Positions 24,489 through 61,024 of a DNA stretch of 64,000 bases are shown in pieces (the stretch's first letter is position 1; every line of letters starts with the position of its first letter). This DNA is from a bacterium (GTDB lineage: Bacteria; Actinomycetota; Acidimicrobiia; Spongiisociales; Spongiisociaceae). The notes beneath the pieces are model-generated. The model did not search any database. It was not told where the DNA came from and worked only from the letters and a program-made list of their open reading frames with translations. Location of the stretch: the NCBI GenBank assembly GCA_026710435.1, contig JAPOQZ010000254.1, positions 1 through 64,000 of the forward strand, given 5' to 3'. A program made the position numbers and the translations under genes.

Positions 24489-24636
24489 TCGTAACCTCAT
24501 GGTGTGGGGTGAGCAGCAAGTTGACCGCCAACAGTCAGTGCCGGAGATCTCGCGATTGCATGGGATCCGGTTCTGCATGTACTACCGAGAACAGGATTCC
24601 AAGGTCCCGCATTGTCGTGCCCTCTGTGCTGGGGAA

Positions 24637-24873
24637 TCATATACTTATGTCACGGACACGGGTCCGCGGACCGTTTCGACCCATCCCCGGCTCGACCCCA
24701 TACCCAGCACGGCCTGCGCCGGTTGCTCGGGATGTGGCTCCGTGACAGTCGGCAGGACGCTCCTTACGTCGCTTCCGTCGCCTCCGCTGCTTCTCTGCCC
24801 GTGTATGGACCGGACAGGGCCCGGCCGGCATCCCGGTCGTCTCGCACGTCCAGTCGTTGGGATGGTCGGTCAC
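24637..24873 (-). CDS. Very small hypothetical protein (78 residues), doubtful
   Basis: Starts at GTG 24873, overlapping the stop of the upstream tiny frame by 4 bases (GTGA). The N-terminus has three cysteines and a His (DWTCETTGMPAGPCPVH) and then a very basic run (RAEKQRRRRKRRKE). The remainder is low in complexity. The overlap with a hydrophobic partner is the main reason to list it; no family is recognised. Confidence 0.22.
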   Translation of the reverse strand: MTDHPNDWTCETTGMPAGPCPVHTRAEKQRRRRKRRKERPADCHGATSRATGAGRAGYGVEPGMGRNGPRTRVRDISI

Positions 24874-25022
24874 AGGTGCTCCCTTCGATCGACTCCTGGT
24901 CTGGTAACGCGTCGGATCAGCCAGCCGACCACGGCCACGGTGAAGCCCGTAACGGGATCGTCGCCGATGGTGGCGAGTATCAGGCCCCATACGACTGCGA
25001 CGGTGCCGAGGACCCGTATCAT
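24870..25022 (-). CDS. Very small hydrophobic protein (50 residues), doubtful
   Basis: MIRVLGTVAVVWGLILATIGDD followed by a second hydrophobic stretch (GFTVAVVGWLI) and a basic tail, so one or two membrane passes are possible. The ATG sits exactly at the left tip of the A1 repeat, so any promoter would lie inside or beyond that element. There is no ribosome binding site. Confidence 0.25.
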   Translation of the reverse strand: MIRVLGTVAVVWGLILATIGDDPVTGFTVAVVGWLIRRVTRPGVDRREHL

Positions 25023-25130
25023 CTAGAACGGTGCTGAACAATGACGATTGATCGGGCCTGCCGCCCACCGACCCAGGAATAATGTCGCCGGTTGGCAGGC
25101 CGCTGGTGGATTGCTCAGTACCCTCCTAGA
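25022..25130. repeat. A element, copy A1 (about 109 bp)
   Basis: The left tip TCTAGAACGGTGCTGAACAA and the right tip (read inward) TCTAGGAGGGTGCTGAGCAA form terminal inverted repeats of over 20 bases. Inner segments GCCTGCC and GGCAGGC also pair, so the whole element can fold into one long hairpin. It is non-coding and similar along its length to A2 and A3. Confidence 0.78.
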
Positions 25131-25411
25131 ACAGTACGACTCGCGCCATCGGTCTGCCTGTGAATGGGTTGGCCATCGGCGGTACGAGGGGTGGGCGATC
25201 CTCGGAGTTCTCGCTAATAGACCAGGGGTTGAACTGTCGGTACGGGTAGCCGCCACCGTGAATCCTTGACGGAAGGGCAAGAATCCTCGGCGCACCGCCG
25301 ATGTCGAACCGACCGTGACGCAGCAGCCGAGGGCGGCCTTGTGCTGGTCCAGTACCGAACGGAACGTCCGCAGCGTGTCGATGGAGCGGTGCTGACCCTG
25401 CCTGACTTGAG

Positions 25412-25624
25412 CTAGCCTTGATTCTTCTTCATGTTTCCAGACACACCCACGGCAACAGGCCACATCAACCACATGATCGTGACTGGGCCTGGCTTCACCC
25501 GACGGGTGAAGGTCCCACAGGGCCGAGACAGGATTGTGGAAATGGCCGTAGTCCCTGGTCAGAAGCTTATATCCCGCACTCTGCTCGCCTAGTGCAAACC
25601 CCCGCATCAAGAATCGGGGCTAGA
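25412..25624. repeat. R element, copy 2 (about 213 bp)
   Basis: Aligned along its length with copy 1 at 16185-16392. Ends are CTAGCCTTGATTCTTC on the left and AAGAATCGGGGCTAG on the right. The right-end hairpin CCCCG..CGGGG is intact. Confidence 0.78.
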
Positions 25625-25984
25625 GCTAGCCGGGACTTCCAGTCGTAGGGCCGTGTCGCGAGGCGGGCGCAGCCGAGGATTCCGTCGCAAGTGTCGGTAG
25701 CGTGCCTCTGCGGAAGCGCAGGCTGGCGACTCTGTGACCAAGGCGCCGTAGACCCGACTTCCTGGCAGCCAGGTGGACCTCGGTGAGAGCAAGGCAGCCT
25801 CTCCCCGACATGGCGCCCCTTCAGTGTACGACGGCCGCGGTCGAACCGACCCAACCTCGCACGGCAACGGCTCACGAGTCCGGCTTCAACAGGTTTCGCC
25901 ACTTCACGCCGTACCATAATCCTTCAGGGTCCGAGAAGGGTGATCGAAGCGACGCCATCGGCTGGGAGTGGTGGTCCCCCATCA

Positions 25985-26086
25985 GGCATGCTGAACAATG
26001 ACGACTATTCGGGCATGCCGCCCGCCGGCGCAGGAGTAGTGCCGGCCCTTGGGGGCCGCCGGTGGATTGCTCAGCACCCTCCTAGA
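25985..26086. repeat. A element, copy A2 (about 100 bp)
   Basis: GCTGAACAATGACGA at the left and ATTGCTCAGCACCCTCCTAG at the right, as in A1. The left outer tip is eroded. The interior keeps GCCGCCCGCC and GGGGGCCGCCGGTGG, which pair. Confidence 0.72.
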
Positions 26087-26104
26087 CAGTGACCTCTAAC
26101 TTCA

Positions 26105-26116
26105 ACCACATGTGGT
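26105..26116. promoter_or_regulatory. Perfect 12-bp palindrome in the transhydrogenase leader
   Basis: ACCACATGTGGT is perfectly symmetric and lies about 250 bases before the transhydrogenase start, a possible operator. No cognate regulator is recognised. Confidence 0.25.
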
Positions 26117-26365
26117 GACATCCCTGGACGTGACCCGGGTCGCCCGACGTGCGGTACATACCGGCCGAAAGCAGGATGCTATTTCTATCTGGGACGGATC
26201 AACCCACCGAGGCGGCTAGCCTGACCGTGAGAGTGCGCAGCGACGATCGCCCGTGGACATCCGGGTAGCCGGTGCCCGCGAGACACCGGGCCTGGTTTGT
26301 GTTACCAATAGGCGACGGGGTGCGGGTCTCCCCGACCGAATACCGAAGGAGTGAGCGGATCAGCA

Positions 26366-27769
26366 ATGTCCGGCTATGACTATGACTTGGTGGTGATCGG
26401 ATCGGGGCCAGCCGGCCAAAGGGCGGCGATCCAGGGATCGAAGCTTGGCAAGCAGGTCGTGGTGGTCGAGCGGGAACCGCAGGTCGGGGGTCTCAACGTC
26501 ACCGCGGGAACGGTCAGCAAGACCATGCGGGATGCTGCCCTGTATCTGACGGGCTACCGGGAACGGAACTTCTACGGCGAGTCTTACGCGGTGAAGGACA
26601 ACATCACCATGGGTGACCTGATGGTGAGGACCCGCTACGTGATGCAGCAGCAGTCGGACATCCTGCGCAGCCATCTGGCTAAGAACCGGGTGGAGGTCAT
26701 CACGGCGGAGGGCTCATTCGTCGATCGCCACACCATCAATCTCTCATCACACGACGGCAAGTCCAACCGGACGATCACCACCGACAAGGTGGTCATCGCG
26801 GTAGGGACGTACTCGACCACTCCGCCTGTGGTGTACGCGGACGGAAGGATGATCTTCGTCAGCGACTACATCCTCGGGCTGGACAACCTGCCACGCACGT
26901 TGAGCATCGTCGGCGCGGGGGCGATCGGGCTGGAGTACTGCAGCACCTTCGCTGCTCTCGGCATCCGGGTCACCATGGTCGACCGGAACGATCGGCTACT
27001 CACCTTTGCCGACGAGGAGCTAGCAGACGCGCTGGCCTTCCACTTTCGCCAGAGGGGGGTGACGCTCCGGCTTCGCGAGATGGTGCACGACGTCGAGTAC
27101 CTAACCGACCAGCGGGGTCCACGCGTGAGGGTCAAGTTGGACAGCGGCAAGCAGATCATCAGCGAAGCGGTCATGTACTGCGTCGGGCGCACCGGCTCAA
27201 CCGACATACTCAACCTGGCTGCGATTGGGCTGGAGGCCGACGGACGGCGTCGGCTGACCGTGGATGAGAACTGCGAAACCAACGTGGAGGGCGTATACGC
27301 GGCTGGAGGTGTCGTAGGATTCCCCGACCTTGTCTCCACGTCGCGGATGCAGGGTCGACGAGCAGCTCGCCATGCCTTCGGTGAGCCATGCGACACGTAC
27401 CAGGACCTGCTGCCGTACACCATCAAGACCATCCCCGAAGTGGCGATGGTCGGCAAGACCGAAACACAGCTCACCGAGGAGGGCGTCCCATACGAGATCG
27501 GCAAGGCTCTGTACCGGGACACCGAGAGCAGCATGGTCAGAGGTGACGATACAGGCTTCCTGAAGATGCTCTTCCACCTCGAAACCAAGGAATTACTGGG
27601 AGTCCACATCATCGGGGACGAGGCAGCCGAGCTGATCCACATCGGTCAAGCGGTCATAGCCCACGGCGGAACGATCGACTACTTCGTCGAGGCGGTCATC
27701 GGCTATCCAACCCTAGCCGAGTGCTACACGACGGCGGCACTCGACGGAATGACCCGTCTCGGGCTGTAG
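26366..27769 (+). CDS. sthA: Soluble pyridine nucleotide transhydrogenase (Si-specific type)
   Basis: A 467-residue flavoprotein disulfide reductase-fold enzyme that moves hydride between NADPH and NAD. VIGSGPAGQRAA binds FAD, and IVGAGAIGLEYCSTFAALG binds the nucleotide. The C-terminal interface domain is complete (GVHIIGDEAAELIHIGQ). The segment YLTGYRERNFYG resembles mycobacterial Sth. The usual redox-site motif GGxCxxxGxxPSK reads GGLNVTAGTVSK, so both cysteine positions are lost, in line with an enzyme that needs no disulfide. ATG 26366 (MSGYDYDL) is preferred; AAGGAG lies 14 bases upstream, nearer to a GTG at 26351. Confidence 0.85.
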   Translation: MSGYDYDLVVIGSGPAGQRAAIQGSKLGKQVVVVEREPQVGGLNVTAGTVSKTMRDAALYLTGYRERNFYGESYAVKDNITMGDLMVRTRYVMQQQSDILRSHLAKNRVEVITAEGSFVDRHTINLSSHDGKSNRTITTDKVVIAVGTYSTTPPVVYADGRMIFVSDYILGLDNLPRTLSIVGAGAIGLEYCSTFAALGIRVTMVDRNDRLLTFADEELADALAFHFRQRGVTLRLREMVHDVEYLTDQRGPRVRVKLDSGKQIISEAVMYCVGRTGSTDILNLAAIGLEADGRRRLTVDENCETNVEGVYAAGGVVGFPDLVSTSRMQGRRAARHAFGEPCDTYQDLLPYTIKTIPEVAMVGKTETQLTEEGVPYEIGKALYRDTESSMVRGDDTGFLKMLFHLETKELLGVHIIGDEAAELIHIGQAVIAHGGTIDYFVEAVIGYPTLAECYTTAALDGMTRLGL

Positions 27770-27950
27770 GCCACACTCCACTCGGAACACCCCCGTTCAT
27801 GCCGTCGTACCCCCTGGTCGGCATCCTGGGTGATTCCCCGGGTGAGCATCTATCCTCGCACGCTCCAAACCCGTCTCTCCGACAACGACGCCGACCGCTT
27901 GGTATTGTGCTCGACATGTCGTGTGTCTTCTTCTGGCCTGCGGAGGAAAT

Positions 27951-28808
27951 ATGTTGACCGGCGCCCAGATCGATAGCTACCACAAAGACGGCTACCTGAT
28001 CGTCCAAAACGTGCTCCCTACTGATGAGATCGAAGCACTTATACGGGTCACCGATCGACTGCTGCAGCAAGCCCTCTACGTCCAAGGCCACGACGATGTG
28101 TTCGACGTCGGACCGGGCCACTCGCCCGCTACACCTCGGGTCCGGCGGATTAGACACCCGAATCTCGTTGATCCCGTGTACGACAGAGTGCTACGGCACC
28201 CGGCAATCCACCGGATCGTGGAGCAGTTGGTCGGTTCATCCGGTATCCGGTATCAAGAGACCAAACTGAACGTCAAGGCAGCCGGTAGCGGCGAGCCGGT
28301 GGAGTGGCATCAGGATTGGGCCTTCGTCCCCCACACGAACGACGATCTGCTCGCCGTCGGGATACCCCTCGACGACATGACTGTCGAGAACGGCTGTCTG
28401 AGAGTCGTTCCCGGCTCGCATCGTGCCGGCATCTTCGACCATCACGCCGATGGCCTATTCGTCGGAGCAGTGGATCCGGAACCGATTCGGAGTGTCCTGG
28501 AGACCGCGGTGCCGATCGAGGTCGAGGCCGGCGGCATCTCGATCCACCACGTCCGAGCCCTGCACGGCTCGGCGCCGAACCCGTCGCATCGTTCGCGCCG
28601 TCTTTACCTGCTGGAGTTGGGCGCTGCTGATGCCTGGCCTCTCATGGGGGTGGACGACCTGGCCGAATTCGACGGCCGCATCGTCCGTGGCCACCCAACG
28701 ATCGAACCCCGCGTCGAGCCCGTACCGGTCCGGATTCCGCTGCCGAGAAGACCCGCTGGATCGATCTACCAACTGCAGGAGTCCGTGCCTTCGTCCGCGT
28801 TCGGCTAA
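27951..28808 (+). CDS. Phytanoyl-CoA dioxygenase (PhyH) family Fe(II)/2-oxoglutarate oxygenase
   Basis: A 285-residue double-stranded beta-helix oxygenase. VEWHQDW gives the H-x-D pair (His120, Asp122), and ALHGSAPNPSHRSRR gives the distal His205 and the arginine that binds 2-oxoglutarate. LRVVPGSHRAG is also typical. Members hydroxylate small molecules such as acyl-CoA, ectoine or alkyl phosphonates; the substrate is open. GGAGGAAAT directly precedes ATG 27951, a strong start. It follows the transhydrogenase gene by 180 bases on the same strand and is probably a separate unit. Confidence 0.87.
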   Translation: MLTGAQIDSYHKDGYLIVQNVLPTDEIEALIRVTDRLLQQALYVQGHDDVFDVGPGHSPATPRVRRIRHPNLVDPVYDRVLRHPAIHRIVEQLVGSSGIRYQETKLNVKAAGSGEPVEWHQDWAFVPHTNDDLLAVGIPLDDMTVENGCLRVVPGSHRAGIFDHHADGLFVGAVDPEPIRSVLETAVPIEVEAGGISIHHVRALHGSAPNPSHRSRRLYLLELGAADAWPLMGVDDLAEFDGRIVRGHPTIEPRVEPVPVRIPLPRRPAGSIYQLQESVPSSAFG

Positions 28809-29151
28809 TCGCGATGTTCATCCGTGGAGGGCCACGGCTCCAGTAACCGGCTCAGAGGCGAAGTCCCCTGACCGGGGATTTGGACGTTGGCGAGGCTCTG
28901 CGCCCCATGCATCAATACCTGGTCCGGAGCGTGAGCGGTGGGTTCGTATCTCGAAAAGCGGGTTCGCCGGTCCTGGAACTCAGGCTCGAGTGTAAGTCAG
29001 GTCAGGCCGGGCTAACCGTTTCGTACCTATGGATTACCTCGTTCATACAGTGCCGCCGCTATCCGATTGCGCTGTCCGCAAACCAGTTGCGGCCTCCGCA
29101 ACACAGGGTTAGAGTCGAATTGCCAGGCCCCCGGCGAAGAGGTACCCCGTC
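28809..29151. other. Intergenic gap containing an IclR-type operator candidate
   Basis: About 340 bases between the oxygenase gene and the amino acid importer. The only structured element found is the three-half-site sequence at 29067-29091. No convincing -35/-10 pair was seen. Confidence 0.45.
29067..29091 (-). promoter_or_regulatory. Three-half-site operator candidate, site 1
   Basis: On the minus strand CGCAA-CTGGT-TTGCG-GACA-GCGCAA. The spacing is the same as at 52633-52657 and 59707-59731. It lies 60 bases before the amino acid-binding lipoprotein gene, in the opposite orientation to the other two relative to the downstream gene. Confidence 0.6.
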
Positions 29152-30048
29152 ATGCGTAGCAGCCGCAAGCCCCATCATGTAAGATCGCTCCTGATCAGCA
29201 TGGCAACTGTGATGCTGGTCTTCACAGCGTGTGGGGAATCGGAACCGGAAGAGACAACAACGGCGGCGACGGCGCCGGCCACCACGGCCGCGCAACCAGA
29301 GCATGCTTTTGGTGGTCGGTTGGCTGAGGTGGTTGAGCGTGGTGTGTTGCGGGTGGGTGTTGCGTTCTACGCGCCGACGTCTATCGAGACTCCCGAGGGG
29401 GACATCAGGGGTGTTGACATCGATGTGACGGGCCAGCTTGCCGAGCGGCTGGGTGTTGACATCGAGTACATTCCGGTGGGGTGGGACGTGATCGCGGCGG
29501 GTGTGCAGGCCGATCGCTATGACATGACGGTCACTCTGGTGGTGAGTGATGAGCGGGATCAGGTTCTTGATTTTTCGGATCCGCTGTATTCGGTCGACCA
29601 ACTGTTCCTGGTGCGTGCTGACAGTCCGTATCAGACGCTTGACGATCTGAACGATCCGTCGGTTACCGCGATTGTGAGTGTCGGTTCTTACGGGGAGACG
29701 GTGGTCGACACCTATATACCTAATGTGACCAAGCGGACTGTGGCGGGGATCACGAACGTTCAGGCGTTGGCCGAGGTGTTGACGGGCCGGGCCGATGTGG
29801 AGGTTATCGAGACGCCGTTCACGACTCGTCGTGTGAAGGCACGGTATGGGGATGATGTGAGGTTCATTCCCGATGTCACCGAGCCGTTGCAGAGCGACTT
29901 CGTGGCTTACGGACTCCCGGAGGGCGACAGCGAGTTTGTGGAGTACGTGAACGCGTTCCTCGCCGATCTCAGGGCCGCCAACGCGATCGAGCCACTGTTC
30001 GACAAATACGTGGAAGAACTCCTCGAACCGATCATCATCGAGGAGTAG
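29152..30048 (+). CDS. Polar amino acid ABC transporter substrate-binding lipoprotein
   Basis: A 298-residue SBP_bac_3 protein. A signal peptide ends in VFTACGES, so Cys27 should be lipidated and anchor it outside the membrane. A short Thr/Ala-rich linker follows. The mature domain shows VLRVGVAFYAPTS and GVDIDVTGQLAERLGVDIEYIPV, typical of His/Gln/Arg-type binding proteins. The coding region from about 29300 to 29900 prefers G- and T-ending codons (GGT, GTT, GTG, TTG), unlike the C-rich codons of its neighbours, which hints at a different origin. The permeases and ATPase follow after 176 bases. An IclR-type operator candidate lies upstream. Confidence 0.88.
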   Translation: MRSSRKPHHVRSLLISMATVMLVFTACGESEPEETTTAATAPATTAAQPEHAFGGRLAEVVERGVLRVGVAFYAPTSIETPEGDIRGVDIDVTGQLAERLGVDIEYIPVGWDVIAAGVQADRYDMTVTLVVSDERDQVLDFSDPLYSVDQLFLVRADSPYQTLDDLNDPSVTAIVSVGSYGETVVDTYIPNVTKRTVAGITNVQALAEVLTGRADVEVIETPFTTRRVKARYGDDVRFIPDVTEPLQSDFVAYGLPEGDSEFVEYVNAFLADLRAANAIEPLFDKYVEELLEPIIIEE

Positions 30049-30224
30049 ATCGTCAGGACGGGCGAACGCGAGCGGGCGGACGGCCGCCGTTCCCGGGTCC
30101 GCGGTAGTAGGCTGTTTACGGTATCAGTCCCTAGCCGTGGGCCTGACGTTTCCGATCCGTCCTTATCGTGCCATGCGGGGACAGGACTAGTTCCTGGCGG
30201 TACCGGTGCTGACCGGGAGCACGT

Positions 30225-30881
30225 ATGGAACTGAGCTTCGACCCGGTCTTCGCTCGGATTCCGTTGCTTCTCCAAGGTCTGTGGCTAACCGTCTCCCTGG
30301 CCGTGTTGGCATTCGTCATGGGAACCGTGGGGGGGCTTCCCCTCGCCTTGGGGCGTATGTCCTCGGCGCTGCGGTCCGTGATTACGGGGCTGATCGAAGC
30401 AACCCTGTCGACTCCGGTCCCCCTCCAGCTGTTCCTGGTGTTCTTCGGCTTGACCACGTTCGACCTCTTTTTCACACCGTTCCAAGCAGTCCTGATCGTC
30501 TTGACCTGGAACCAGGCAGTCGTAATGGCCGAGAACTACCGGGCTGGACTGCAGTCGGTACCCGAGGGCTACAAGCGCGCAGGCGTCGTCCTCGGTCTGA
30601 GCCGGACCGACCGGTACCGGTTCGTGATCCTCCCGCTGGCGATACGGGCCGTCCTCCCACCGATGACGAGTTCGACCGTCAACCTGATCAAGGATTCAGC
30701 CCTCGCCGGCTTCATCGGTGCGACCGACCTTCTCAACGCAGGCTTGATAGGTGCCACGGAGAGCTTCAGACCGATCGAGTTCTACACGGTCGTTGCCATC
30801 GTCTACTTCGTGATCTCCTATCCGGTCGTGTTGCTCGCGGATCGCATGGAAAACGCGATGGCAGTCTCAAGGGACCGGTGA
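30225..30881 (+). CDS. Polar amino acid ABC transporter permease (first)
   Basis: A 218-residue HisM/GlnP-type inner-membrane subunit with five to six hydrophobic segments. YRAGLQSVPEGYKRAGVVLGLSRTDRYRFVILPLAIR holds the EAA loop that contacts the ATPase. The gene is followed three bases later by the second permease, and the two should form a heterodimer. It belongs with the lipoprotein gene upstream; the specific amino acid is not known. Confidence 0.88.
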   Translation: MELSFDPVFARIPLLLQGLWLTVSLAVLAFVMGTVGGLPLALGRMSSALRSVITGLIEATLSTPVPLQLFLVFFGLTTFDLFFTPFQAVLIVLTWNQAVVMAENYRAGLQSVPEGYKRAGVVLGLSRTDRYRFVILPLAIRAVLPPMTSSTVNLIKDSALAGFIGATDLLNAGLIGATESFRPIEFYTVVAIVYFVISYPVVLLADRMENAMAVSRDR

Positions 30882-30884
30882 CGT

Positions 30885-31553
30885 ATGGAGTTCGTAGGTG
30901 AACTCATCGACTACATCCCGGCATTCTGGCGCGGGTTGCGCTACACGCTCGGGCTCGCCGCCATTGCGCTAACACTCGGCGTGGTGCTCGGCCTCTTGAT
31001 TGCCCTTGCCCGGATGTCAAGATACCGATTCTTCAGGATCCCGGCCACCGTGTTCGTCGAGTTCTTCCGGACCACTCCCCTAGTCGTCCAGATAGTCTGG
31101 ATCTTCTTCGTGCTGCCAGTGATTCTCGACATCTCGCTCTCATCCTTCCACGCAGGAGCGATCGCCCTGGGTATGAACCAGGCGGCATACAAGTCCGAAC
31201 TCTTCCGTGCCGGTCTGGAGGAGGTGACAGGCAGCCAGCGTCGGGCCGCACGGGTCCTCGGGCTCAGCCGGCTGGATGCCTTCCGGTTCGTTGTGGCACC
31301 CCAGGCAATCGCGGTCATCCTGCCGGCATTCATGGCCCATACGATGCTGCTCGTCAAGGGGACAGCATACGTCAGCATCCTGCGGGTGCCGGAACTGACG
31401 CATACCGCGACCCTGATCTCGCTGGACTCCTTCCGGTTCCTCGAGGTCTACGTGGTAGTCGGTGTGATCTACTTCCTGATGATCTACCCACTTGGTGGGC
31501 TCGGACGCTGGTTGGAGAAGCGAGGGAGCGGCAGATGGAGGGTACAGCAATGA
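30885..31553 (+). CDS. Polar amino acid ABC transporter permease (second)
   Basis: A 222-residue permease of the same HisMQ type as its upstream neighbour. [36 protein letters not shown] is the EAA loop. [16 protein letters not shown] near residue 65 is the family hallmark. Its stop overlaps the ATPase start (ATGA), so both are made together. Confidence 0.9.
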
Positions 31554-32353
31554 GCAAAGGCAGGTCGTCAGGATCACGGTCGGCGAAGGTCACCGTGAGA
31601 TCGCTTGACAAGTCGTATGACTCCTTGGCAGTGCTGCGTGACATCTCACTCGAGGTCGAGCCCAGTGATGTACTGGTATTGATCGGCCCCAGTGGCTCGG
31701 GCAAGAGCACACTGCTGCGGATGATCGCCCGGTTGGAACCGTTCGACCGGGGCGAGCTATGGATAGGGGACCAACTCGTCGGGGTCGGGCAACACCAGGA
31801 GCCGGATACTGAGAGGTCCCTCGCAGCCCCCGATGTCCGCCACGCCCTTCGCAAGGAGGTGGGCATGGTCTTCCAGCAGTTCAACCTCTTCCCGCACCTA
31901 ACCGTACTCAGAAACGTGACCCTCGCCCCAGAACGGGTCAGGAAGCTCAGCCAGGACGATGCCGAGAAACTGGCCATGACCCTGCTCGAGAATGTGGGCC
32001 TGTCGGAGAAGGCCCACGAGTACCCGGCGCGCCTGTCGGGTGGGCAACAACAACGCGTCGCGATCGCACGAGCTCTCGCAATGGGTCCGGAGGTGATGCT
32101 GTTCGACGAGGTGACGTCCGCCCTCGACCCGGAGCTCGTTGGCGAGGTTCTCGCCGTCATGAGAAAACTCGCGGATGAGGGGATGACGATGATCGTCGTC
32201 ACGCACGAGATGCATTTCGCTCAGGACGTTGCAGACAAGGTCATCTTCATGGACGAAGGAAGGGTGGTTGAGATAGGCCCACCCGACCAGATATTCCACC
32301 AACCCCGTCAACCGAGAACCCAGGCATTCTTGAGGAGGCTGCTAGCCCGGTGA
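31550..32353 (+). CDS. Polar amino acid ABC transporter ATPase
   Basis: A 267-residue GlnQ/HisP-type ATPase. [14 protein letters not shown] is Walker [17 protein letters not shown] the Q-loop region, [17 protein letters not shown] the signature and [15 protein letters not shown] Walker B, followed by VVTHEM with the switch His. About 25 residues between the Walker A region and the Q-loop ([20 protein letters not shown]) are longer than usual. The last codons and the stop lie inside the left end of an R repeat, so the natural C-terminus may have been altered slightly by that insertion. Confidence 0.9.
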
Positions 32354-32422
32354 CTCGACACCTACCCGGTCTTGGTGCGGGGGTTCGTTCGGCACAAACC
32401 CCCGCATGAAGAATCGGGGCTA
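32342..32422. repeat. R element, copy 3 (about 81 bp, internally deleted)
   Basis: The left end CTAGCCCGG and CGACACCTACCCGG match the start of other copies, and the right end CAAACCCCCGCATGAAGAA followed by TCGGGGCTA matches their end. The middle is missing. The element begins within the last codons of the ABC ATPase gene. Confidence 0.6.
32376..32406 (+). terminator. Strong hairpin after the amino acid ABC operon
   Basis: TGCGGGGGTT (32376-32385) pairs perfectly with AACCCCCGCA (32397-32406) across an 11-base loop, 22 bases after the ATPase stop. It is made in part from the R element right end. There is no T-run. Confidence 0.6.
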
Positions 32423-32559
32423 ACGCAAGCAAGGCCGCAACCAATAGGACGCTCCATCCATTGAGTAAGAACGAGTTCTAGCCGAGCCGTGCCACGATAG
32501 CTTGGATCATGGAGAGGTGGGCTTCTCTCTTACGCGTCATGTCTGGTGGGTCTTACGAG

Positions 32560-32668
32560 CCTAGAAAGGTGTTGAACAATGACGATTGCTCGGGTGTGCC
32601 GCCCGCAGACCCAGGTACTATGCCAGCGGTTGGCAGGCCGCTGGTGGACTGCTCGGCGCCCTCCTAGA
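32560..32668. repeat. A element, copy A3 (about 109 bp)
   Basis: Left tip CCTAGAAAGGTGTTGAACAA, right tip GCTCGGCGCCCTCCTAG. The interior is very close to A1, with GTTGGCAGGCCGCTGGTGGA shared exactly. Confidence 0.75.
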
Positions 32669-32827
32669 ACGTCCTACGGCTGTCCCCAGTCTCGGATTGC
32701 AATCAGACTCCGTCCTCTTGGCAAGGAAGCTGTTTCGGAAATCCGGAAGAGCAAGGTTGATCCGGAGTATGCGGTTGAACACCTTGACGCCCCGGAACCT
32801 GTGGCGTACGCGGCTGATTCGTTCCGA

Positions 32828-33631
32828 TCAGGTTTTCTTGGCGGCCTTCGTGTAGCGGCGGACAGATAGCGGGGCAAAGATCGCGATGACGATCCCGGCC
32901 CAGATGATCGAGTAGATGACGGGATGCTGGAGGGGCCAGACGGTGGGTTCGGGGGTTCCCGGGGGGATGTTACCGAACAGGGTCCGGGTGGCGTGGGCGA
33001 GCGACGAGATCGGGTTCCACTCGGCGAACACTCGCAGCACCGTCGGTAGGTTCTCGGAGGGGACGAACGTGTTGGCGATGAACGTGATCGGGAAGATCAC
33101 CATGAACGAGGCGTTGTTCAGCACCTCGACGCTGGGAACTATGAGCCCGACCAGAGCCATCATCCAGGAAATGGAGTAGGCGAACAGCAGGAGCAGGCCG
33201 AACCCCGCCAAGGCGTCGAGGATGCTCCCGCGCATTCTCCAGCCCACCAGAAGGCCGGTTAGCCCCATGATCAACAGGGTGAGAACGTTGTAAATGACGT
33301 CGCTGGCCGTGCGTCCCAGCACCACTGCCGCTCGGGACATGGGCAGCGACCGGAACCGGTCGATGATGCCCTTCTGCATGTCGTCGGCTAGGCCGGCCCC
33401 CGTGAAGGTGGCGCCGAAGACCACCGTCTGGGCGAAGATCCCCGCCATCAGGAACTCCCTGTATGAACCGCCGGGTATCTGGATAGCGCTGCCGAACACG
33501 TATGCGAAGAGCAGCACGAACATGATCGGGGATATGAGAACGAACACCAGAATGTCGGGGACGCGCTTGATCTTGATGAGGTTGCGCTTGGCGATGACCA
33601 TCCCGTCGTTGATCGCGTACAGAACGTTCAC
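32828..33631 (-). CDS. ABC-2 type exporter permease (DrrB-like)
   Basis: A 267-residue membrane protein with six hydrophobic segments and the ABC-2 domain pattern: PIMFVLLFAYVFGSAI, FGATFTGAGLADDMQKGIIDRFRSLPMSR and FPITFIANTFVPSENLP. These are typical of daunorubicin-resistance DrrB-type permeases. Start GTG 33631 overlaps the ATPase stop (GTGA). With the ATPase it should form an exporter for a lipophilic compound or a cell-envelope lipid. The substrate is unknown. Confidence 0.9.
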   Translation of the reverse strand: MNVLYAINDGMVIAKRNLIKIKRVPDILVFVLISPIMFVLLFAYVFGSAIQIPGGSYREFLMAGIFAQTVVFGATFTGAGLADDMQKGIIDRFRSLPMSRAAVVLGRTASDVIYNVLTLLIMGLTGLLVGWRMRGSILDALAGFGLLLLFAYSISWMMALVGLIVPSVEVLNNASFMVIFPITFIANTFVPSENLPTVLRVFAEWNPISSLAHATRTLFGNIPPGTPEPTVWPLQHPVIYSIIWAGIVIAIFAPLSVRRYTKAAKKT

Positions 33632-34617
33632 GCTGCTCCCCTTCCCTCCGTATCCGGTTTCGATCCGTCGTCCTCCGGCTGGGTGACGTGACCCGTCAAA
33701 GCCAGGAAGACATCGTCGAGAGTGGGTCGGCGCAGCACCACGTCGCTCACCTCGATGCCTTCGGTGTCGAGATCTTCCAACACTCGGGCCAGCACAGGTG
33801 CCCCGCCGGAAACCGGTGCGACGACCACCCTCGGGCGCTCGTCGTCCTGGAGTTCACCCACCGCGACCCTGGCCAGAACTTCTCGGGTGGCAGGAAGGGT
33901 CTCGGCATCCGTCACCTTCACCTCGAGACGTTCGCCCCCTACGAGGTCCTTGAGCTCGTCGGAAGTTCCCTGGGCAATCGCCTTGCCGTGGTCGATCACC
34001 AGGACATCATCGGCCAGCCGATCTGCCTCTTCCAGGTACTGGGTGGTGAGCAGGAGGGTGGCACCCCGCTTCACCAGGTCACGAATGATCCGCCACAATT
34101 CCTGGCGGCTGGGTAGGTCCAGCCCGGTGGTCGGTTCGTCGAGAAACAATACCGGGGACTCAGCCACCAATGCCCCGGCGAGGTCCAGGCGGCGCCGCAT
34201 ACCGCCCGAGTAGGTCTTGACAGGGCGGTCCGCGGCGTCGGCAAGGTCGAACCGTTCGAGCAGTTCACGGGCCCGAGTCCTGGATCTCTTGCGTCCCAGC
34301 CGGTAGAGCCGACCGATCATGTCCAGGTTCTCGAAGCCGGTCAGATGCTCGTCGACCGCGGCATACTGGCCGGACAGGCCGATCAGCTTGCGAACCTCGG
34401 CCGGCTCACGTAGGACATCCACCCCGGCCACCGTCGCACTTCCCTCGTCCGGTTCGAGGAGCGTGGTGAGGATCGACACGGCTGTCGTCTTGCCGGCTCC
34501 GTTCGGCCCGAGCAGCGCCACGATGGTGCCCTTGCGAACCGACAGATCAAGCCCGTCCAGCGCCACCACGTCGCCGTAACGCTTCACCAATCCCTTGGCC
34601 TCGATTATGTTCTCCAC
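33628..34617 (-). CDS. ABC exporter ATPase (DrrA-like, daunorubicin resistance type)
   Basis: A 329-residue ATPase. LLGPNGAGKTTAVSIL is Walker A, TYSGGMRRRLDLAGALV the signature and VLFLDEPTTGLD Walker B, with LLTTQYLEEADRLAD as the DrrA-specific switch region. A C-terminal domain of about 90 residues (DUF4162-like) ends in LRRPTLDDVFLALTGH. Start GTG 34617. It is first of a two-gene operon with the permease. Confidence 0.92.
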   Translation of the reverse strand: MENIIEAKGLVKRYGDVVALDGLDLSVRKGTIVALLGPNGAGKTTAVSILTTLLEPDEGSATVAGVDVLREPAEVRKLIGLSGQYAAVDEHLTGFENLDMIGRLYRLGRKRSRTRARELLERFDLADAADRPVKTYSGGMRRRLDLAGALVAESPVLFLDEPTTGLDLPSRQELWRIIRDLVKRGATLLLTTQYLEEADRLADDVLVIDHGKAIAQGTSDELKDLVGGERLEVKVTDAETLPATREVLARVAVGELQDDERPRVVVAPVSGGAPVLARVLEDLDTEGIEVSDVVLRRPTLDDVFLALTGHVTQPEDDGSKPDTEGRGAA

Positions 34618-52596: not shown

Positions 52597-52625
52597 TTGA
52601 CGCGGCCGGGCAATTACCCAATAAT
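52597..52625 (+). promoter_or_regulatory. Promoter of the U32-like / hydrolase / enolase operon
   Basis: TTGACG (52597-52602), a 17-base spacer and AATAAT (52620-52625). Predicted start of transcription is about 52632, at the edge of the operator that follows. Confidence 0.65.
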
Positions 52626-52632
52626 CATGCCA

Positions 52633-52657
52633 CGCAACACCGTTGCGATGCGCGCAA
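52633..52657 (+). promoter_or_regulatory. Three-half-site operator candidate, site 2
   Basis: CGCAA-CACCG-TTGCG-ATGC-GCGCAA, directly after the -10 box and 16 bases before the first start codon. A bound protein would block transcription, as expected of an IclR-type repressor. Confidence 0.7.
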
Positions 52658-52673: not shown

Positions 52674-53597
52674 ATGAAGATACAGGAAGCGCTCCGCCGG
52701 CAGGGCCTGGTCAATGCGGTGACGCCGGCGGATAGCGACCGCCGATTTCCCGACGGCGCCGAGTTCCGGATCGAGATCCCGAGCGTCGAGGGTCCCACTG
52801 TGCTGGCCGCGGTGGTAGAACAGGCGGATCGGTACGACCTCACCGTCAACCGCATCTCTCAGGGCAGCGGGGGCATGCTACTCGAGGAGGGCGAACTCCG
52901 GGAGATGGCCGCCATCGGCGCAGAGACGGGTCTCGAGGTGTGCCTGTTCACCGGGCCCAAGGCCGGTTACGACATCGGCGCGTTCAGCCGGTCGGAAGAC
53001 GGGCGCAGCCAGTTCGCCCAGATAAGAGGTATGCGCCAGCTGCGGTACGCTGCGGCAGACATCGCCAGGGCTACCGAGGCAGGGATCCGCAGCTTTCTGG
53101 TGGGTGACCTCGGCCTGCTGGCGGTCCTGACCCGGATGCAGGCCGACGGCGACCTCCCCGGCGAGACCGTATGGAAGATCTCGGCCTACATGGGGGTCTC
53201 GAATCCGGCCTCCGTCCGGCTGCTGGAGGAGATGGGCGCCGGATCGGTCAACATTCCGGCAGACGTGACCCTGGAACAACTCTGGGAGATCAGGTCGGCC
53301 GCATCCATTCCCATCGACCTATACCTGGAGACTCCCGACAGTATGGGTCCCGTCGTCAGGGGCCACGAGATCGCCGACTTCGTGGCGGTCGGGGCACCGC
53401 TGCACGCGAAGATGGGCCTTGCCAACGCGGGTGGCGTCTACCCTTCCGGTGGCCAGACGGTCGACACCGCCATTGCCAATGCCCGCGAGAAGGTGCGCCG
53501 GGCTGCCCTCGCTCTGGAATGGCTGAAGAGGGAAAGACCGGCCTCGGTCCAGTCGAAGCCACACGCTGCGGGGCTCGGCATCCCGGTTGTCCCCTAA
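52674..53597 (+). CDS. U32-peptidase-like TIM-barrel protein
   Basis: A 307-residue protein without a signal peptide. VNRISQGSGGMLLEEGELREMAAIGAETGLEVCLFTGP, FLVGDLGLLAVL, VWKISAYMGVSNPASVRLLEEMGAGSVNIPADVTLEQL and LYLETPDSMGPVVRGHEIADFV recall the U32/UbiU-type barrel. The iron-sulfur cysteines of UbiU/UbiV are absent. Its enzymatic role is not established. GGGGAGGG precedes ATG 52674. It is the first gene of a six-gene plus-strand catabolic set under the operator at 52633-52657. Confidence 0.55.
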   Translation: MKIQEALRRQGLVNAVTPADSDRRFPDGAEFRIEIPSVEGPTVLAAVVEQADRYDLTVNRISQGSGGMLLEEGELREMAAIGAETGLEVCLFTGPKAGYDIGAFSRSEDGRSQFAQIRGMRQLRYAAADIARATEAGIRSFLVGDLGLLAVLTRMQADGDLPGETVWKISAYMGVSNPASVRLLEEMGAGSVNIPADVTLEQLWEIRSAASIPIDLYLETPDSMGPVVRGHEIADFVAVGAPLHAKMGLANAGGVYPSGGQTVDTAIANAREKVRRAALALEWLKRERPASVQSKPHAAGLGIPVVP

Positions 53598-53632
53598 GGG
53601 AGTGTGATCCGCGTCATGAGCAATCCGGTGTC

Positions 53633-54490
53633 ATGTTCCGCGACCTCACCCAGCCTGCACGGTCACGTTCATCCATCCGGCGCGGTGTGGGTTCCTCGGT
53701 GAGGCTTCTCTTCGCCGAGTTGACTCGTGATGAGTCCCGAACGATAGCCAGGGACGGCCTGCTGGTCCTACCTGTCGGTGCTACCGAACAGCACGGGCCT
53801 CATTTGCCGGTCGGGACGGACTCGATCGGCGCCGAACACGTGGCACGGTCAGCGGCGGCGACCGTGGCCGACCGGTTCCCGGTAGCGGTGGCCCCGACCC
53901 TCTGGTACGGGTCGTCTCCCCACCACATACCATTCGGGGGCACAATGTCGCTGACCGCCGGAACATTCCTGTCAGTTCTGATGGACCTCGGGCGGTCGAT
54001 CGCCCGCGCTTCCTTCCGGCGGCTCTTCATCGTCAACGGTCACGGCGGGAACCACGAGTTGATCGGTCTCGCCGCACGTGACCTGGCGCTGGAGGAAGGC
54101 ATGGATGTGGCGGCATGCTCGTGGTGGCATCTGGCTGCCGAAGGGCTTGCAGCCGCCGGAGCCCGCGAGATCGGTCGGCTTCCCGGCCATGCTGGTGCAT
54201 TCGAGACGTCGGTGGTGCTGGCGTTGGAGCCTTCGCTGGTACGAAACCCTCGACCCCATCGACCGGGATGGGTTTCATCCGTCGGCTCCATCGACGTGCC
54301 GGTGAGGGTCGAACGTCCGGGAAGCTGGGAGGCGACCGATGGGTTCACCGACAGCCCTGCTGCCGCATCCGAGGAGTTGGGCCAAACCTTTCTGAAGATC
54401 GGCATCGAATCGGTGGCTGCTGCCATGATCGACTTCCACGAGGGTTCACCGAGCGCGGAGGGCACTCCTGACGAAAGGAAGAGGACATGA
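53633..54490 (+). CDS. Creatininase-family amidohydrolase
   Basis: Up to 285 residues. LVLPVGATEQHGPHLPVGTDSIGAEHVA holds the Glu, His and Asp ligands. IVNGHGGNHELIGLAAR and GHAGAFETSVVLAL (His and Glu) complete the two-metal site. The family opens cyclic amides such as creatinine or cleaves formamides. Start ATG 53633 is the longest option; GTG 53699 (VRLLFAEL) is closer to where homologues usually begin. The stop overlaps the M20 gene start (ATGA), tying it to that gene. Confidence 0.88.
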   Translation: MFRDLTQPARSRSSIRRGVGSSVRLLFAELTRDESRTIARDGLLVLPVGATEQHGPHLPVGTDSIGAEHVARSAAATVADRFPVAVAPTLWYGSSPHHIPFGGTMSLTAGTFLSVLMDLGRSIARASFRRLFIVNGHGGNHELIGLAARDLALEEGMDVAACSWWHLAAEGLAAAGAREIGRLPGHAGAFETSVVLALEPSLVRNPRPHRPGWVSSVGSIDVPVRVERPGSWEATDGFTDSPAAASEELGQTFLKIGIESVAAAMIDFHEGSPSAEGTPDERKRT

Positions 54491-55659
54491 GCGACTTGTT
54501 CGAACGGGCCGCCACGGCCATCGACACCAGACGCGTGGTCGACCTGGCCCGAGCCTTGTGCAGCATCTCGTCGGATGATCCCCGAGCGGAGGGTCCACGG
54601 GCGGAAATCATCGCGGATGCCTTGGACCGCGCCGGGGCGGAGGTTCATATAGCGGACGTAGTCGAAGGCCGCCCGAACGTCATAGCGAGGGTGAAGGGTG
54701 ACGGCCGGAGAGCGCCGCTGGTGCTGCAGGGACACATCGACGCCGGCGTGTACCAGACTGGCTGGACCCGACCTGCCCACAGCCCCTGGGAGTCAGGCGG
54801 GCGGCTGTACGGCGGAGGTGTCACAGACATGCTCGGAGGGGTAGCGGCAATGGCTGCGGCTGTCGAGGCTGCGACCGGATTCGGACCCCTTCCCGGTGAC
54901 CTCGTACTCCACGCGACGATGTATCACGATGGCATCGGGCTCGGCTCGAAGTATGCACTGATGACCGAAGGACCCGACGAGGGCTACGGGATCTGCGGAG
55001 AGCCCTCGGATCTGAACATCCATACGGGCAACGGGGGGGCATTCAAGTTCGAGATCACGCTTACCGGGTCTCCCGCGCACGTATCGCGCATGGAGTCTGC
55101 CGTAGACACCCTCCGCCCGGCGGTGGCGGTCTACGACAGGCTCGTAGACCACGAGTTCTCGCACCGACCCGAGCCCCGGCTCCCCGACCTGCCGCGGCTG
55201 CTGGTCGGGGAACTCAAGGCCGGCGACTCACCTGCGGCCGTGGCAGAGTCGGCGACCATCCGTGGTGATCTGCGTTACGTCCCCGGGATGGACAGGGTCA
55301 CAGTCAGGCAGGAGATCCTGGATATTGTCGACGGCGTGGTGCCGGACGAGGTAGCCCGCAGGGTGCGCATCATCGGTGTCCATCAGCCCTTCCTGGGGGC
55401 GACTTCGGGTCCGTTGATCGATGCCATATCGGCCGCCCAGGCCGCCATCGTCGGCCATGTTCCGCGAGTGACCCATGAGTTACCCGGCCAAGCCTTCGTC
55501 ACCGACGCCGCGGACCTGGCGGCGGCCGGACTGGAGACCGTTGTGTACGGCGTCGGGGCCTGGTACTACGCCCCGGACGAGTGGGTCTGGATCGACCATC
55601 TGGCCGGGTCTGCACGTGTGTACCTGGCTGTGGCGGCCATGCTCGGCGCCGATTCGTGA
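54487..55659 (+). CDS. M20-family metallohydrolase (ArgE/DapE-like) with altered active site
   Basis: A 390-residue protein with the M20 domain order. LQGHIDAG (His83, Asp85) and GVTDMLGG (Asp114) are metal ligands, and a lid domain (GNGGAFKFEITLTGSPAHVSRMESAVD) lies in the middle. The DEE motif that holds the catalytic base and a bridging ligand is replaced by YHD (146-148, in MYHDGIGLGS). Either the chemistry differs from classic deacylases or the protein is inactive. Family members remove acyl groups from amino acids. It is coupled to the creatininase gene. Confidence 0.82.
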   Translation: MSDLFERAATAIDTRRVVDLARALCSISSDDPRAEGPRAEIIADALDRAGAEVHIADVVEGRPNVIARVKGDGRRAPLVLQGHIDAGVYQTGWTRPAHSPWESGGRLYGGGVTDMLGGVAAMAAAVEAATGFGPLPGDLVLHATMYHDGIGLGSKYALMTEGPDEGYGICGEPSDLNIHTGNGGAFKFEITLTGSPAHVSRMESAVDTLRPAVAVYDRLVDHEFSHRPEPRLPDLPRLLVGELKAGDSPAAVAESATIRGDLRYVPGMDRVTVRQEILDIVDGVVPDEVARRVRIIGVHQPFLGATSGPLIDAISAAQAAIVGHVPRVTHELPGQAFVTDAADLAAAGLETVVYGVGAWYYAPDEWVWIDHLAGSARVYLAVAAMLGADS

Positions 55660-55696
55660 CCGACCGAGCGGGGCGACCTTCCGGATCCCGGACGGC

Positions 55697-56560
55697 ATGA
55701 TCGTCGACGCCCATACCCATGTCGGCTCCCGCGAGCACTTCAGCCCCCGGTTCGTGGCGGAGATGGTCCGAGCGTGGGGCGAGATGAACTGGCCGGAGGA
55801 CGATCTCGCCGCCCACCGGGAGGCCATGGAAGAGGTCGACCGGGCGATAGTGGTGGCGATGGACGCCCCGGCGGTCGGGATGGTGGTGCCTGATCGGTAC
55901 GTCAGCGAGTACGTGGCATCCCAGCCGGACAAACTGGTGGGGTTCGCGAGCGTCGATCCCAACCGGCCCGACGCGTTGGAGCGCCTTACCTTTGCGGTGG
56001 AGGAACTCGGTCTCACGGGCCTCAAGGTAGGGCCCATCTACCAGCACTTCGACCCGACCTCCCCTCCTGCGATCGCCTTGTTCCGGCGGGCCGAAAAGCT
56101 GGGCCTACCCGTGCTGTGCCACCAGGGCACCACCTTCGTCTCGGACGCGCCGCTGCGCTGGGCCAGACCCTTCCTGATCGACGATGTCGCCCGTGCGTGC
56201 CCGGATCTGCGACTGTTCATCGCCCACCTCGGGCACCCCTGGTGCGAGGAGACGATGGCGGTCATCCGCAAGCACCCCAACCTGTACGCGGATGTCTCTG
56301 CCCTCCACACCAGGCCGGTCCAGTTGTATATGGCGCTGCGGTCCGCAATCGAGTATCGGGCCACCGAGAAACTCCTGTTCGGAAGCGACTTCCCTTTCGC
56401 CACACCTGCCGGCACCGCCGAAGCCTTGCGGTCCGTCAACGACTCGGTAGGCGTGGGCTGGCCGCCGATTCCCACCGAGATCATCGAACAGATCATCCGG
56501 AGTCCCGCGCTACGGGTACTGGGGCTCGAAGATGAAGTAGCCCAGGAGGGTGTTGTATGA
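55697..56560 (+). CDS. Amidohydrolase family 2 (ACMSD-like) metal enzyme, paralogue
   Basis: A 287-residue barrel. VDAHTHVGS (HxH), VLCHQGTTF, FIAHLGHPW and LLFGSDFPF give all the metal positions. GLTGLKVGPIYQHFDPTSPPAIALFRRAEKLG mirrors the gene at 49749-50639. ATG 55697 is preferred; the frame is open further upstream but overlaps the M20 gene. Its stop overlaps the next start (ATGA). The two paralogues flank this catabolic block and may act on related substrates. Confidence 0.87.
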   Translation: MIVDAHTHVGSREHFSPRFVAEMVRAWGEMNWPEDDLAAHREAMEEVDRAIVVAMDAPAVGMVVPDRYVSEYVASQPDKLVGFASVDPNRPDALERLTFAVEELGLTGLKVGPIYQHFDPTSPPAIALFRRAEKLGLPVLCHQGTTFVSDAPLRWARPFLIDDVARACPDLRLFIAHLGHPWCEETMAVIRKHPNLYADVSALHTRPVQLYMALRSAIEYRATEKLLFGSDFPFATPAGTAEALRSVNDSVGVGWPPIPTEIIEQIIRSPALRVLGLEDEVAQEGVV

Positions 56561-57675
56561 GAGTCGAGCGGATACGTACCACGGCGGTGGCTGTGCCCAT
56601 GATCGAGGAACGGATCATCGCCGGAGCCAGGGGAACCCACAGCCGTTCGCCTTTCCTGATCGTCGAAGTGGACACCGACGAGGGTCTGGTGGGTCTCGGC
56701 GAGGTGTCCTGTACACCTCTATGGAGCGGCGAGGACTCTGCCACGGCCCGGCATGTGATCAGCGCCTACATTGAGCCGGCGGTCTCCGGCCTCGATCCCC
56801 GGTCCCCCGAAGCGCTCCAGCCGATGATCAACGGAGCCATCGCCGGTCACTACTTCACCAAGGCCGGGGTGGAGATGGCGCTGTGGGACATCGCAGGCAA
56901 GGCGGCTGGGCTTCCCGTTCATCGGCTGCTTGGAGGGCCGGTCATGCCACGTATCCCCACCAAGTTCTCAGTGACCGGTCGGGAACCGGAACGTGCCGCG
57001 GAGGTCGCCTCCTGGGCAGTGGAGCAGGGCTTCGGAGCGATGAAAGTGAAAGTCGGCAGGGGCGGGGTCAAGGCCGATGTCGCCAGGGTGGCAGCGGTAA
57101 GGGCAGCGATCGGTGACGATGTGGTCCTCGGAGTGGATGCGAACGGCGGATGGAACCGGGGTGAAGCGATCCAGGCCGGCGGACAGATCGCCCCGCTGGG
57201 TGTTTCGTTCATGGAACAGCCGGTACCGGCCCGGGACCTGGCGGGAATGGCCGAGGTGAGGCGCCAGGTCAGGATGCCGGTGGTCGCCGACGAGTCAGCC
57301 GGTACACCCGAAGACGCGGCCCTGCTCGCCGTGAACGAGTCATGCGACATCCTGTCGATATATGTCGGAATGGCCGGCGGGATAGCCTCCGCTCGGAGGG
57401 TGGCGGCCGTGGCCACCTCCTTCGGGCTGGGATGGACCATCGGATCCAACCTGGAACTCGGAATAGCGCTGGCGGCGCATATCCACATCGCAGCCTCGAC
57501 CCCCGGCTTCGATAGGCGTGTCCCAGCCGACATCCTCAGCCCCTTCTACTACGAGGGAGACGTGATCGCCGAGCCTCTCGACGTGAGAGCGGGCGAAGCC
57601 ATAGCCCCTGAAGGTCCCGGGCTGGGCGTGAGTCTCGACCGGGATGCCCTGGAACGCTACCGGGACACCGGTTGA
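56557..57675 (+). CDS. Enolase-superfamily enzyme (MLE/dipeptide-epimerase-like branch)
   Basis: A 372-residue protein. MKVKVGRGG gives the KxK pair, DANGGW the first Asp, MEQPVP and ADESAG the next metal ligands. The second catalytic Lys expected in the muconate-lactonizing branch is missing: the segment reads CDILSIYVGMAGG. A one-base mechanism such as dehydration or ring opening is therefore likelier than two-base racemisation. ATG 56557 overlaps the amidohydrolase stop. Its close neighbour at 57707 is a paralogue. Confidence 0.85.
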   Translation: MRVERIRTTAVAVPMIEERIIAGARGTHSRSPFLIVEVDTDEGLVGLGEVSCTPLWSGEDSATARHVISAYIEPAVSGLDPRSPEALQPMINGAIAGHYFTKAGVEMALWDIAGKAAGLPVHRLLGGPVMPRIPTKFSVTGREPERAAEVASWAVEQGFGAMKVKVGRGGVKADVARVAAVRAAIGDDVVLGVDANGGWNRGEAIQAGGQIAPLGVSFMEQPVPARDLAGMAEVRRQVRMPVVADESAGTPEDAALLAVNESCDILSIYVGMAGGIASARRVAAVATSFGLGWTIGSNLELGIALAAHIHIAASTPGFDRRVPADILSPFYYEGDVIAEPLDVRAGEAIAPEGPGLGVSLDRDALERYRDTG

Positions 57676-57706
57676 AGCGGCCTGAACTGGTCGCACGGAT
57701 GCTGAT

Positions 57707-58831
57707 TTGCGGATAACCGGGGTTGCCGCCACCCCAGTCGAGGTTCCGCGGCTGGCCCGCTTCCAACCCAAGACTGCGCACGGCGCGGTGCGGGCGAGTC
57801 GCTACGTCGTGCTCGAGATCGAGAGCGGTCCGGGAAAGGTGGGAATCGGGGAGATCACCTGCGATCCACTTTGGAACGGCGAGGAAGCCACGGAAACGTC
57901 CAGGCTGCTGAACGGTCCTCTCGGGAACGTCCTGCTCGGGGCCGATCCTCTCCAGTGGGCCGATGTGTCTGCCCGGATCGACCGAGCGATTACGGGACGG
58001 CCGTTCCTCCGGGCGGCTGTCGAGATGGCCTGCCTGGATGTTGTGGGGCGACACTTCGGGGAACCGGCCCATGCGTTCTTGGGGGGCGCCTACCGAACGG
58101 AGATCGACACCAAGCTCGTGCTTCCCGCTCGGGATGTGGACACTGTGCGAGCCATGGCTGCGGACGCTGTCGGGCTAGGAGCGACCACCTTGAAGGTAAA
58201 GGTAGGGCTCGGGGTTGAAGAGGACCTTGCCCGCGTCGCCGCGGTCCGCAGCGTTGCCGGACCGGATGTCCGGATCACCGTCGATGCGAACGAGGGCTGG
58301 ACCCCGGAGGAGGCGACCGCGGCGTTCGGCGGCTTGGCCCCTCTCGGCGTGGTTGCGGTCGAGCAGCCGCTGGCGAGAGGATCCGCCGGCGCGTCCGCCG
58401 CTCTCGTCCGGAAGACGTCGATGGCTGTGATGGGTGACGAGTCGATCTGGACGGAGCAGGACGTGGTCGAGGCAGCCCGGAATGGTTCCTTCGATACCAT
58501 CAACGTCTATCCGGGCAAGTGCGGAGGGCTCAGGCGAACGATCCGGATGGCGAGCCTGGCCCGAACGCTCGGGCTGGCGGTCTCCTACGGCTCCAATCTC
58601 GAGCTCGGTATCGGGGCCGCGGCATTGGCCCACACGGTGGCGGCTACGAAGGTTCTGAGCCCGGTCGTGCCTGCTGATCTCATCGGACCGCTCTACTTCG
58701 AGGAAACCATGGTCGAGAACCCGGGCTTCGTGGGATGGCGATCAGCCAGTGTTCCGGCCGGGTCCGGCCTCGGAGTGAGGCTCGACCATGCCGCGGTGGA
58801 CGCTTACCGGATCCGTGAGGGTGCAACTTGA
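57707..58831 (+). CDS. Enolase-superfamily enzyme, second copy
   Basis: A 374-residue protein, similar in order to its upstream neighbour: LKVKVGLGVEEDLARVAAVR (KxK), VDANEGWTPEEA, AVEQPLARG, MGDESIW. Here the strand that lacks Lys in the paralogue reads FDTINVYPGKCGG, with a Lys two residues later. GEITCDPLWNGEEA near residue 50 parallels GEVSCTPLWSGEDS in the other. The start is TTG 57707, the only reasonable codon. The last 28 bases overlap the convergent IclR gene. Confidence 0.83.
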   Translation: MRITGVAATPVEVPRLARFQPKTAHGAVRASRYVVLEIESGPGKVGIGEITCDPLWNGEEATETSRLLNGPLGNVLLGADPLQWADVSARIDRAITGRPFLRAAVEMACLDVVGRHFGEPAHAFLGGAYRTEIDTKLVLPARDVDTVRAMAADAVGLGATTLKVKVGLGVEEDLARVAAVRSVAGPDVRITVDANEGWTPEEATAAFGGLAPLGVVAVEQPLARGSAGASAALVRKTSMAVMGDESIWTEQDVVEAARNGSFDTINVYPGKCGGLRRTIRMASLARTLGLAVSYGSNLELGIGAAALAHTVAATKVLSPVVPADLIGPLYFEETMVENPGFVGWRSASVPAGSGLGVRLDHAAVDAYRIREGAT

Positions 58832-59586: not shown

Positions 59587-59670
59587 TGTTCCTCCCCAAC
59601 GGCGGCAACAGCACAGTACCCGATCGAGTCGCGGAGAAAAACCTTCGTACGAGTGCTCGCTCATGATCAC

Positions 59671-59700
59671 TTGACACGTTCGAGAGCCGGGCACCACAAT
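59671..59700 (+). promoter_or_regulatory. Promoter of the PotD-like lipoprotein operon
   Basis: TTGACA (59671-59676), an 18-base spacer and CACAAT (59695-59700). The operator follows at once, in the same arrangement as at 52.6 kb. Confidence 0.6.
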
Positions 59701-59706
59701 GACTAA

Positions 59707-59731
59707 CGCAAACCGGTTGCGCAGAGCGCAA
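59707..59731 (+). promoter_or_regulatory. Three-half-site operator candidate, site 3
   Basis: CGCAA-ACCGG-TTGCG-CAGA-GCGCAA. TTGCGC-AGA-GCGCAA within it is a perfect palindrome. It lies between the iclR gene and the divergent importer gene, so it could serve both. Confidence 0.72.
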
Positions 59732-60989: not shown

Positions 60990-61024
60990 GGACTACGCCT
61001 GACGGTGTCACCCTTCGACGTAGG

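Follow-up and report, generated by a model that had tools for sequence, protein, structure and literature searches.

The probable operator before the remote importer

Which regulator controls an ABC importer operon whose nearest look-alike operators lie beside an iclR gene tens of kilobases away? The question arises in the window, the 64,000-nucleotide (64-kb) stretch of DNA analyzed here. A first-pass annotation had read CGCAA-CTGGT-TTGCG-GACA-GCGCAA on the minus strand at 29067-29091, in the gap before this importer, with the spacing of two sites near iclR about 30 kb away. Both statements hold: the sequence has 0 mismatches to the pattern of the sites at 52633-52657 and 59707-59731 and lies ~30.6 kb from iclR. 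The pattern common to the remote and the two iclR-proximal sites is CGCAA-N5-TTGCG-N5-CGCAA and is exact at all three. The annotation had overlooked a second exact copy on the plus strand (29077-29101), offset by 10 bp from the first and on the opposite strand. This copy has the same orientation to its own gene as those at 52633-52657 and 59707-59731, and its center lies 63 bp before the start codon of the gene for the importer's binding protein. Beside the exact copies, a third one with one mismatch occupies 29057-29081.

The resulting array (29057-29101, assigned to neither strand) consists of five boxes with a 10-bp period, CGCTA (29057), TTGCG (29067), CGCAA (29077), TTGCG (29087) and CGCAA (29097), that is, four perfect boxes and one degenerate box (CGCTA) forming two exact three-box sites. 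By sequence, it shows the hallmarks of three-box operators: close to a gene start, boxes in alternating, inverted orientation recur at intervals of about one turn. A promoter scan found no clear -35/-10 pair around the array; weak promoter-like alternatives recognized by eye are TTGCGG at 29087 combined with TAGAGT at 29110 and, before the array, TACAGT at 29046. Copying of the operator by DNA duplication was considered and rejected because the surroundings of the remote site hardly match those of the other two: its 60-bp flanks agree with theirs at only 10-15 of 60 positions and its spacers at 2-4 of 10.

Scanning the window with ≤3 mismatches of 16 positions yielded 6 matches versus 0.56 expected, a number reached by 0 of 100 shuffles. 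We then applied a 15-position motif to the whole genome (4,914,624 bases, 4.9 Mb). With ≤1 mismatch, there were five matches at three places, all inside the 64-kb window (before the remote importer, before a catabolic operon and between iclR and a Pot-like importer), and none for the reversed-pattern control. Allowing ≤2 mismatches added two single places (C66, C241) versus eight in the reversed control. Base composition predicts ~0.012 exact three-box and ~1e-5 four-box sites for 4.9 Mb.

The regulator and its neighborhood

The iclR gene (58804-59664, minus strand) probably starts with the ATG at 59664, within an ORF listed to 59697. Its product belongs to the IclR family on the basis of Pfam matches to HTH_IclR (31.8 bits, cut-off 22) and IclR_C (93.5 bits, cut-off 24). 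The adjacent catabolic operon (52674-58831, plus strand), in which gene order is kept in relatives, encodes a protein without a Pfam match, a creatininase-family protein, an M20 deacylase, an Amidohydro_2 protein and two MR/MLE enolases, the first of which, the one examined, is related to N-acylamino acid racemases and dipeptide epimerases. The protein without a Pfam match is the product of the first gene (52674-53192) and has 173 amino acids; it also lacks a solved relative and is conserved at 78-93% in family relatives and at 52% in genome G168 of another family. On the other side of iclR, the Pot-like ABC importer (59778-63902, plus strand) comprises a binding protein, two permeases and a TOBE ATPase. 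In NCBIfam, its ATPase passes the PotA subfamily model (389 versus 355.6) but no Pot equivalog, and its binding protein scores 48 versus a PotD cut-off of 582.

Both operators near iclR follow promoter-like sequences on the plus strand. Before the catabolic operon, the pair TTGACG-17-AATAAT (52597-52625), conserved in relatives, is succeeded 7 bp after the -10 box by the exact motif at 52633-52657. Between iclR and the Pot-like importer, the pair TTGACA-18-CACAAT (59671-59700) precedes the exact motif at 59707-59731, which begins 6 bp after the -10 box. Relatives keep -35/-10-like pairs directly upstream of both operators, and exact sites were present at both in 5/5 family relatives found via the iclR protein. 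Across these six genomes, our own included, 30/30 box positions were invariant at the two operators versus 9/20 spacer positions (Fisher 4e-6; four of the six genomes are close relatives of one another). Only genomes retrieved with the iclR protein were counted, because box conservation in motif-found genomes is circular; a seven-genome version includes the motif-found G002. The start of transcription is a repressor's usual operator place, and the position of the two iclR-proximal operators directly after conserved -35/-10 boxes suggests repression that is lifted by an inducer.

Co-occurrence of motif and iclR across genomes

Among the 15 genomes of the family, own genome included, seven contain the exact motif and six a close iclR ortholog (72-78% identity). 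The eight genomes lacking both nevertheless contain further IclR-type matches, although weaker ones. Extending the search to 395 genomes of the class gave 11 with the exact motif and seven with an iclR ortholog at E 1e-35. The motif was present in all seven ortholog-containing genomes and in 4/388 others (Fisher 1e-12); because the genomes are related, the independent evidence for this link amounts to two clades, the family and G168. The annotation had further proposed a single regulon linking the remote importer, the Pot-like importer and the catabolic operon. This co-occurrence supports one regulon across the three transcription units with iclR as its likely regulator, whereas the term 'amino acid importer' survives as a family label only, since the remote binding protein reaches none of the curated substrate-specific cut-offs.

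In G168, where the IclR protein is 39% identical, the iclR region holds the same catabolic core with the 173-amino acid protein, creatininase, M20, amidohydrolase and two enolases. An exact motif is found ~84 bp upstream of the position where an Opp-type importer (SBP5/OppBC/two-ATPase) probably starts, a one-mismatch site precedes the catabolic operon, and sites with two to three mismatches are located between iclR and a formamidase-family gene. The arrangement of iclR, importer and catabolic operon is therefore repeated with a different importer family.

Four motif-containing genomes lack the ortholog. One is G002, in which both iclR-proximal operators are kept exact. There, the stretch of ~510 bp that separates the second enolase gene from the Pot-like importer (C18, L091:15595-16108) lacks iclR and any detectable remnant of it, and the best match elsewhere in the assembly is 29% identical. 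Operators can thus outlive their regulator, or another protein may read them; possible explanations are a recent loss of iclR, its move to an unassembled part or a different reader. The other three, G222, G073 and G038, have one site each. Within 20, 14.7 and 20 kb, respectively, no regulon enzyme genes or iclR were detected near these sites (E 1e-8), and the surroundings in G073 gave ABC ATPase matches only. The reversed pattern also produces three single matches in the 395 class genomes, and these three sites are therefore probably background.

The remote importer is part of a probably inserted block

The remote operator lies within a 5.07-kb block (27768-32834, plus strand) that is absent at the same junction in the sister species, G002. 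It comprises a PhyH dioxygenase gene (27921-28808) and, on the plus strand, the importer operon, with an SBP_bac_3 binding protein (29152-30048; Pfam PF00497, 88 bits), two BPD_transp_1 permeases assigned by Pfam (30225-30881 and 30885-31553) and an ABC ATPase of the polar amino acid or EhuA-like type (31535-32353) that scores below the EhuA cut-off. In G002, of the same genus, sequences aligning to 26346-27767 and 32835-34616 of the window are merely 113 bp apart; 27768-32834 was therefore either inserted here or lost there. In G005, G006, G008, G010 and G013, these two flanking units likewise lie close together and the block is missing. In G009, G012 and G014, a different gene of ~550 codons, apparently for a Ppx/GppA-type phosphatase, separates them (L148, L146, L147), and the spot is therefore variable. 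This comparison leaves out G011 (similar gap), G007 (partly split over contigs), G001, G003 and G004. The absence of the block from so many relatives favors a gain in this lineage over losses in the others.

For the binding protein itself, the remaining 14 of the 15 family genomes yielded no ortholog (best ~31% identity), and none appeared in 395 sampled class genomes (E 1e-40) or 396 sampled phylum genomes (E 1e-35), with up to six candidates per genome scored in both searches. A foreign origin judged by composition was rejected, as the block genes, at 59-62% G+C versus 64% for the window and 62% for a neighboring gene, are not distinctive. Plasmid matches all had <60% identity and none covered 80%; Rfam returned no match in 24500-33000. 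Two kinds of repeated sequence were noted in this part of the window. A dispersed, non-coding MITE-like repeat of ~110 bp with inverted ends CTAGgAgGGTGCTGA...TCAGCACCCTCCTAG and at least ~40 genome copies occurs at 32561-32670, near the right edge of the block, and at 25023-25132 and 25989-26086, to its left. A terminator-like hairpin GCGGGGGTT...AACCCCCGC is found at 32377-32430 and 25595-25630, with several further genomic occurrences of its right part.

Comparison with known systems

The regulator and its site belong to a known type; the remote site is most likely a further member of a well-defined IclR regulon, notable chiefly for having a lineage-specific insertion as its target. IclR three-box operators of the PcaU, PobR and HmgR type resemble the present sites in their alternating box orientation, two overlapping palindromes per site and location near the gene start, but have GTNCG/CGNAC boxes instead of CGCAA/TTGCG; the remote array, with four perfect boxes and a degenerate fifth, also departs from them in box number. 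PMC8222616 predicts three-box operators in 32 IclR-family ortholog groups and reports 18-22 nt for tandem sites, a range that includes the 20 bp between the palindrome centers of the remote array. Its Table 1 lists the TphR operator of Comamonas sp. E6 (TTTTTGCGCATAGCGCAAAAA), which likewise has TTGCG-N5-CGCAA with the same spacing but is given as a single palindrome, serves terephthalate genes and comes from another phylum. Of the glyoxylate-responsive regulators BhcR, AllR and IclR, BhcR is the best NCBIfam match of iclR, and the group is among its best PDB matches; yet iclR scores 110 bits versus a BhcR cut-off of 350, and its target genes are unrelated to those of the group. A limited search on the motif and on IclR regulon capture retrieved no description of the present regulon.

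Assignment of the remote site and its alternatives

On this evidence, we consider it likely that the window's IclR genuinely uses the remote site as a multi-box operator and that the inserted importer is thereby added to a conserved catabolic regulon. In this genome, the site otherwise occurs only beside iclR and its operon, so the inserted importer is probably under the resident regulator. In this model, IclR dimers or tetramers occupy the CGCAA/TTGCG boxes, phased at 10 bp, at three promoters, which would most likely stay repressed as long as no inducer is present; the inducer may be an amide-type compound that the pathway encoded at 52.7-58.8 kb has as substrate or product. The second importer, apparently inserted with its 5-kb block in this lineage, would join the regulon in this way. 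IclR is thus predicted to bind the remote promoter too and, more probably than activating it, to repress it. A nitrogen compound as shared inducer, as the annotation had suggested, for instance an amide-type molecule, is plausible in light of the amide-hydrolase gene content.

A chance or non-functional match at the remote site appears very improbable. The site is not conserved, with nothing orthologous found for comparison, and the exact motif occurs once, apparently as background, in 3/395 genomes; but four perfect phased boxes would be expected in the genome only ~1e-5 times, the plus-strand site is centered close to the transporter start codon (63 bp), and all three genomic places fall into one 64-kb window. 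We also regard it as improbable, though less so, that the sites are read by an IclR paralog or a regulator of another family, with the window's iclR merely a neighbor. G002, with both exact operators and no iclR, would suit such a reader, and so would the six IclR_C matches in the own genome, the window's iclR among them. Against this, the motif accompanies iclR in 7/7 ortholog-containing genomes, the eight family genomes devoid of ortholog and motif retain weaker IclR-type matches, motif and iclR are again associated in G168, of another family, with sites adjoining that genome's own iclR, and PMC8222616 describes box patterns of this type for IclR proteins.

More open to discussion, although still unlikely, is that the same IclR activates the remote promoter or affects it in some other way; the array would then lie upstream of a core promoter with, for example, the -10 sequence TAGAGT at 29110-29115. 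TTGCGG at 29087 and TAGAGT at 29110 are spaced by 17 bp, the scan detected no canonical promoter near the array, and activation of the main operon is described in PMC11323563 for BhcR, a related regulator of the IclR type. With a TTGCGG/TAGAGT promoter, however, the array would overlap the -35 box, an arrangement that also suits repression, and the other two operators are directly downstream of a -10 box.

If the remote site is an operator of the resident IclR, the regulon may have a constant catabolic core and regulator to which importers are swapped or added. Importers with the IclR motif are Pot-type in the family and Opp-type in G168, with the polar-amino-acid type additionally present here. 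It is an even call whether the regulon evolves by such importer capture through operator possession, the block either having brought a ready-made multi-box operator or having gained one after insertion. The case is compact: there are three operator places genome-wide, the candidate regulator is clear and the added target is an importer specific to this lineage. It lends itself well to studying how a resident regulator takes control of inserted transport genes. With its four to five boxes, the array would also suit experiments on a question posed in PMC8222616, namely whether IclR proteins have two modes of dimerization on multi-box sites.

What the remote importer may carry

Co-regulation also hints at the cargo of an otherwise unassignable importer, for which no NCBIfam substrate assignment exceeded its cut-off. 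Ectoine uptake by EhuABCD with an ectoine hydroxylase was considered on account of the EhuA-like ATPase and the adjoining PhyH gene, weakly like ectoine hydroxylase, and was rejected: EhuA, although the best NCBIfam match of the ATPase, scored 317/345, EhuB 53/191 and ectoine hydroxylase 55/337, all below cut-off. A single-sequence structure prediction of the binding protein had a mean pLDDT of 36 and was left unused. Its nearest solved relatives are cyclohexadienyl dehydratase-type proteins. Aligned with its relatives, the binding protein keeps an arginine and has threonine where two solved chains of this type have aspartate. In this fold, we take the conserved arginine to hold a carboxylate as a rule and the aspartate position to contact the alpha-amino group of the ligand. 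Provided that these roles are right, threonine in place of aspartate would point to a carboxylate without a free alpha-amino group; our guess is a ligand of this kind, for example an N-acyl amino acid, and the M20 deacylase, enolases and amide hydrolases of the co-regulated operon would agree with it.
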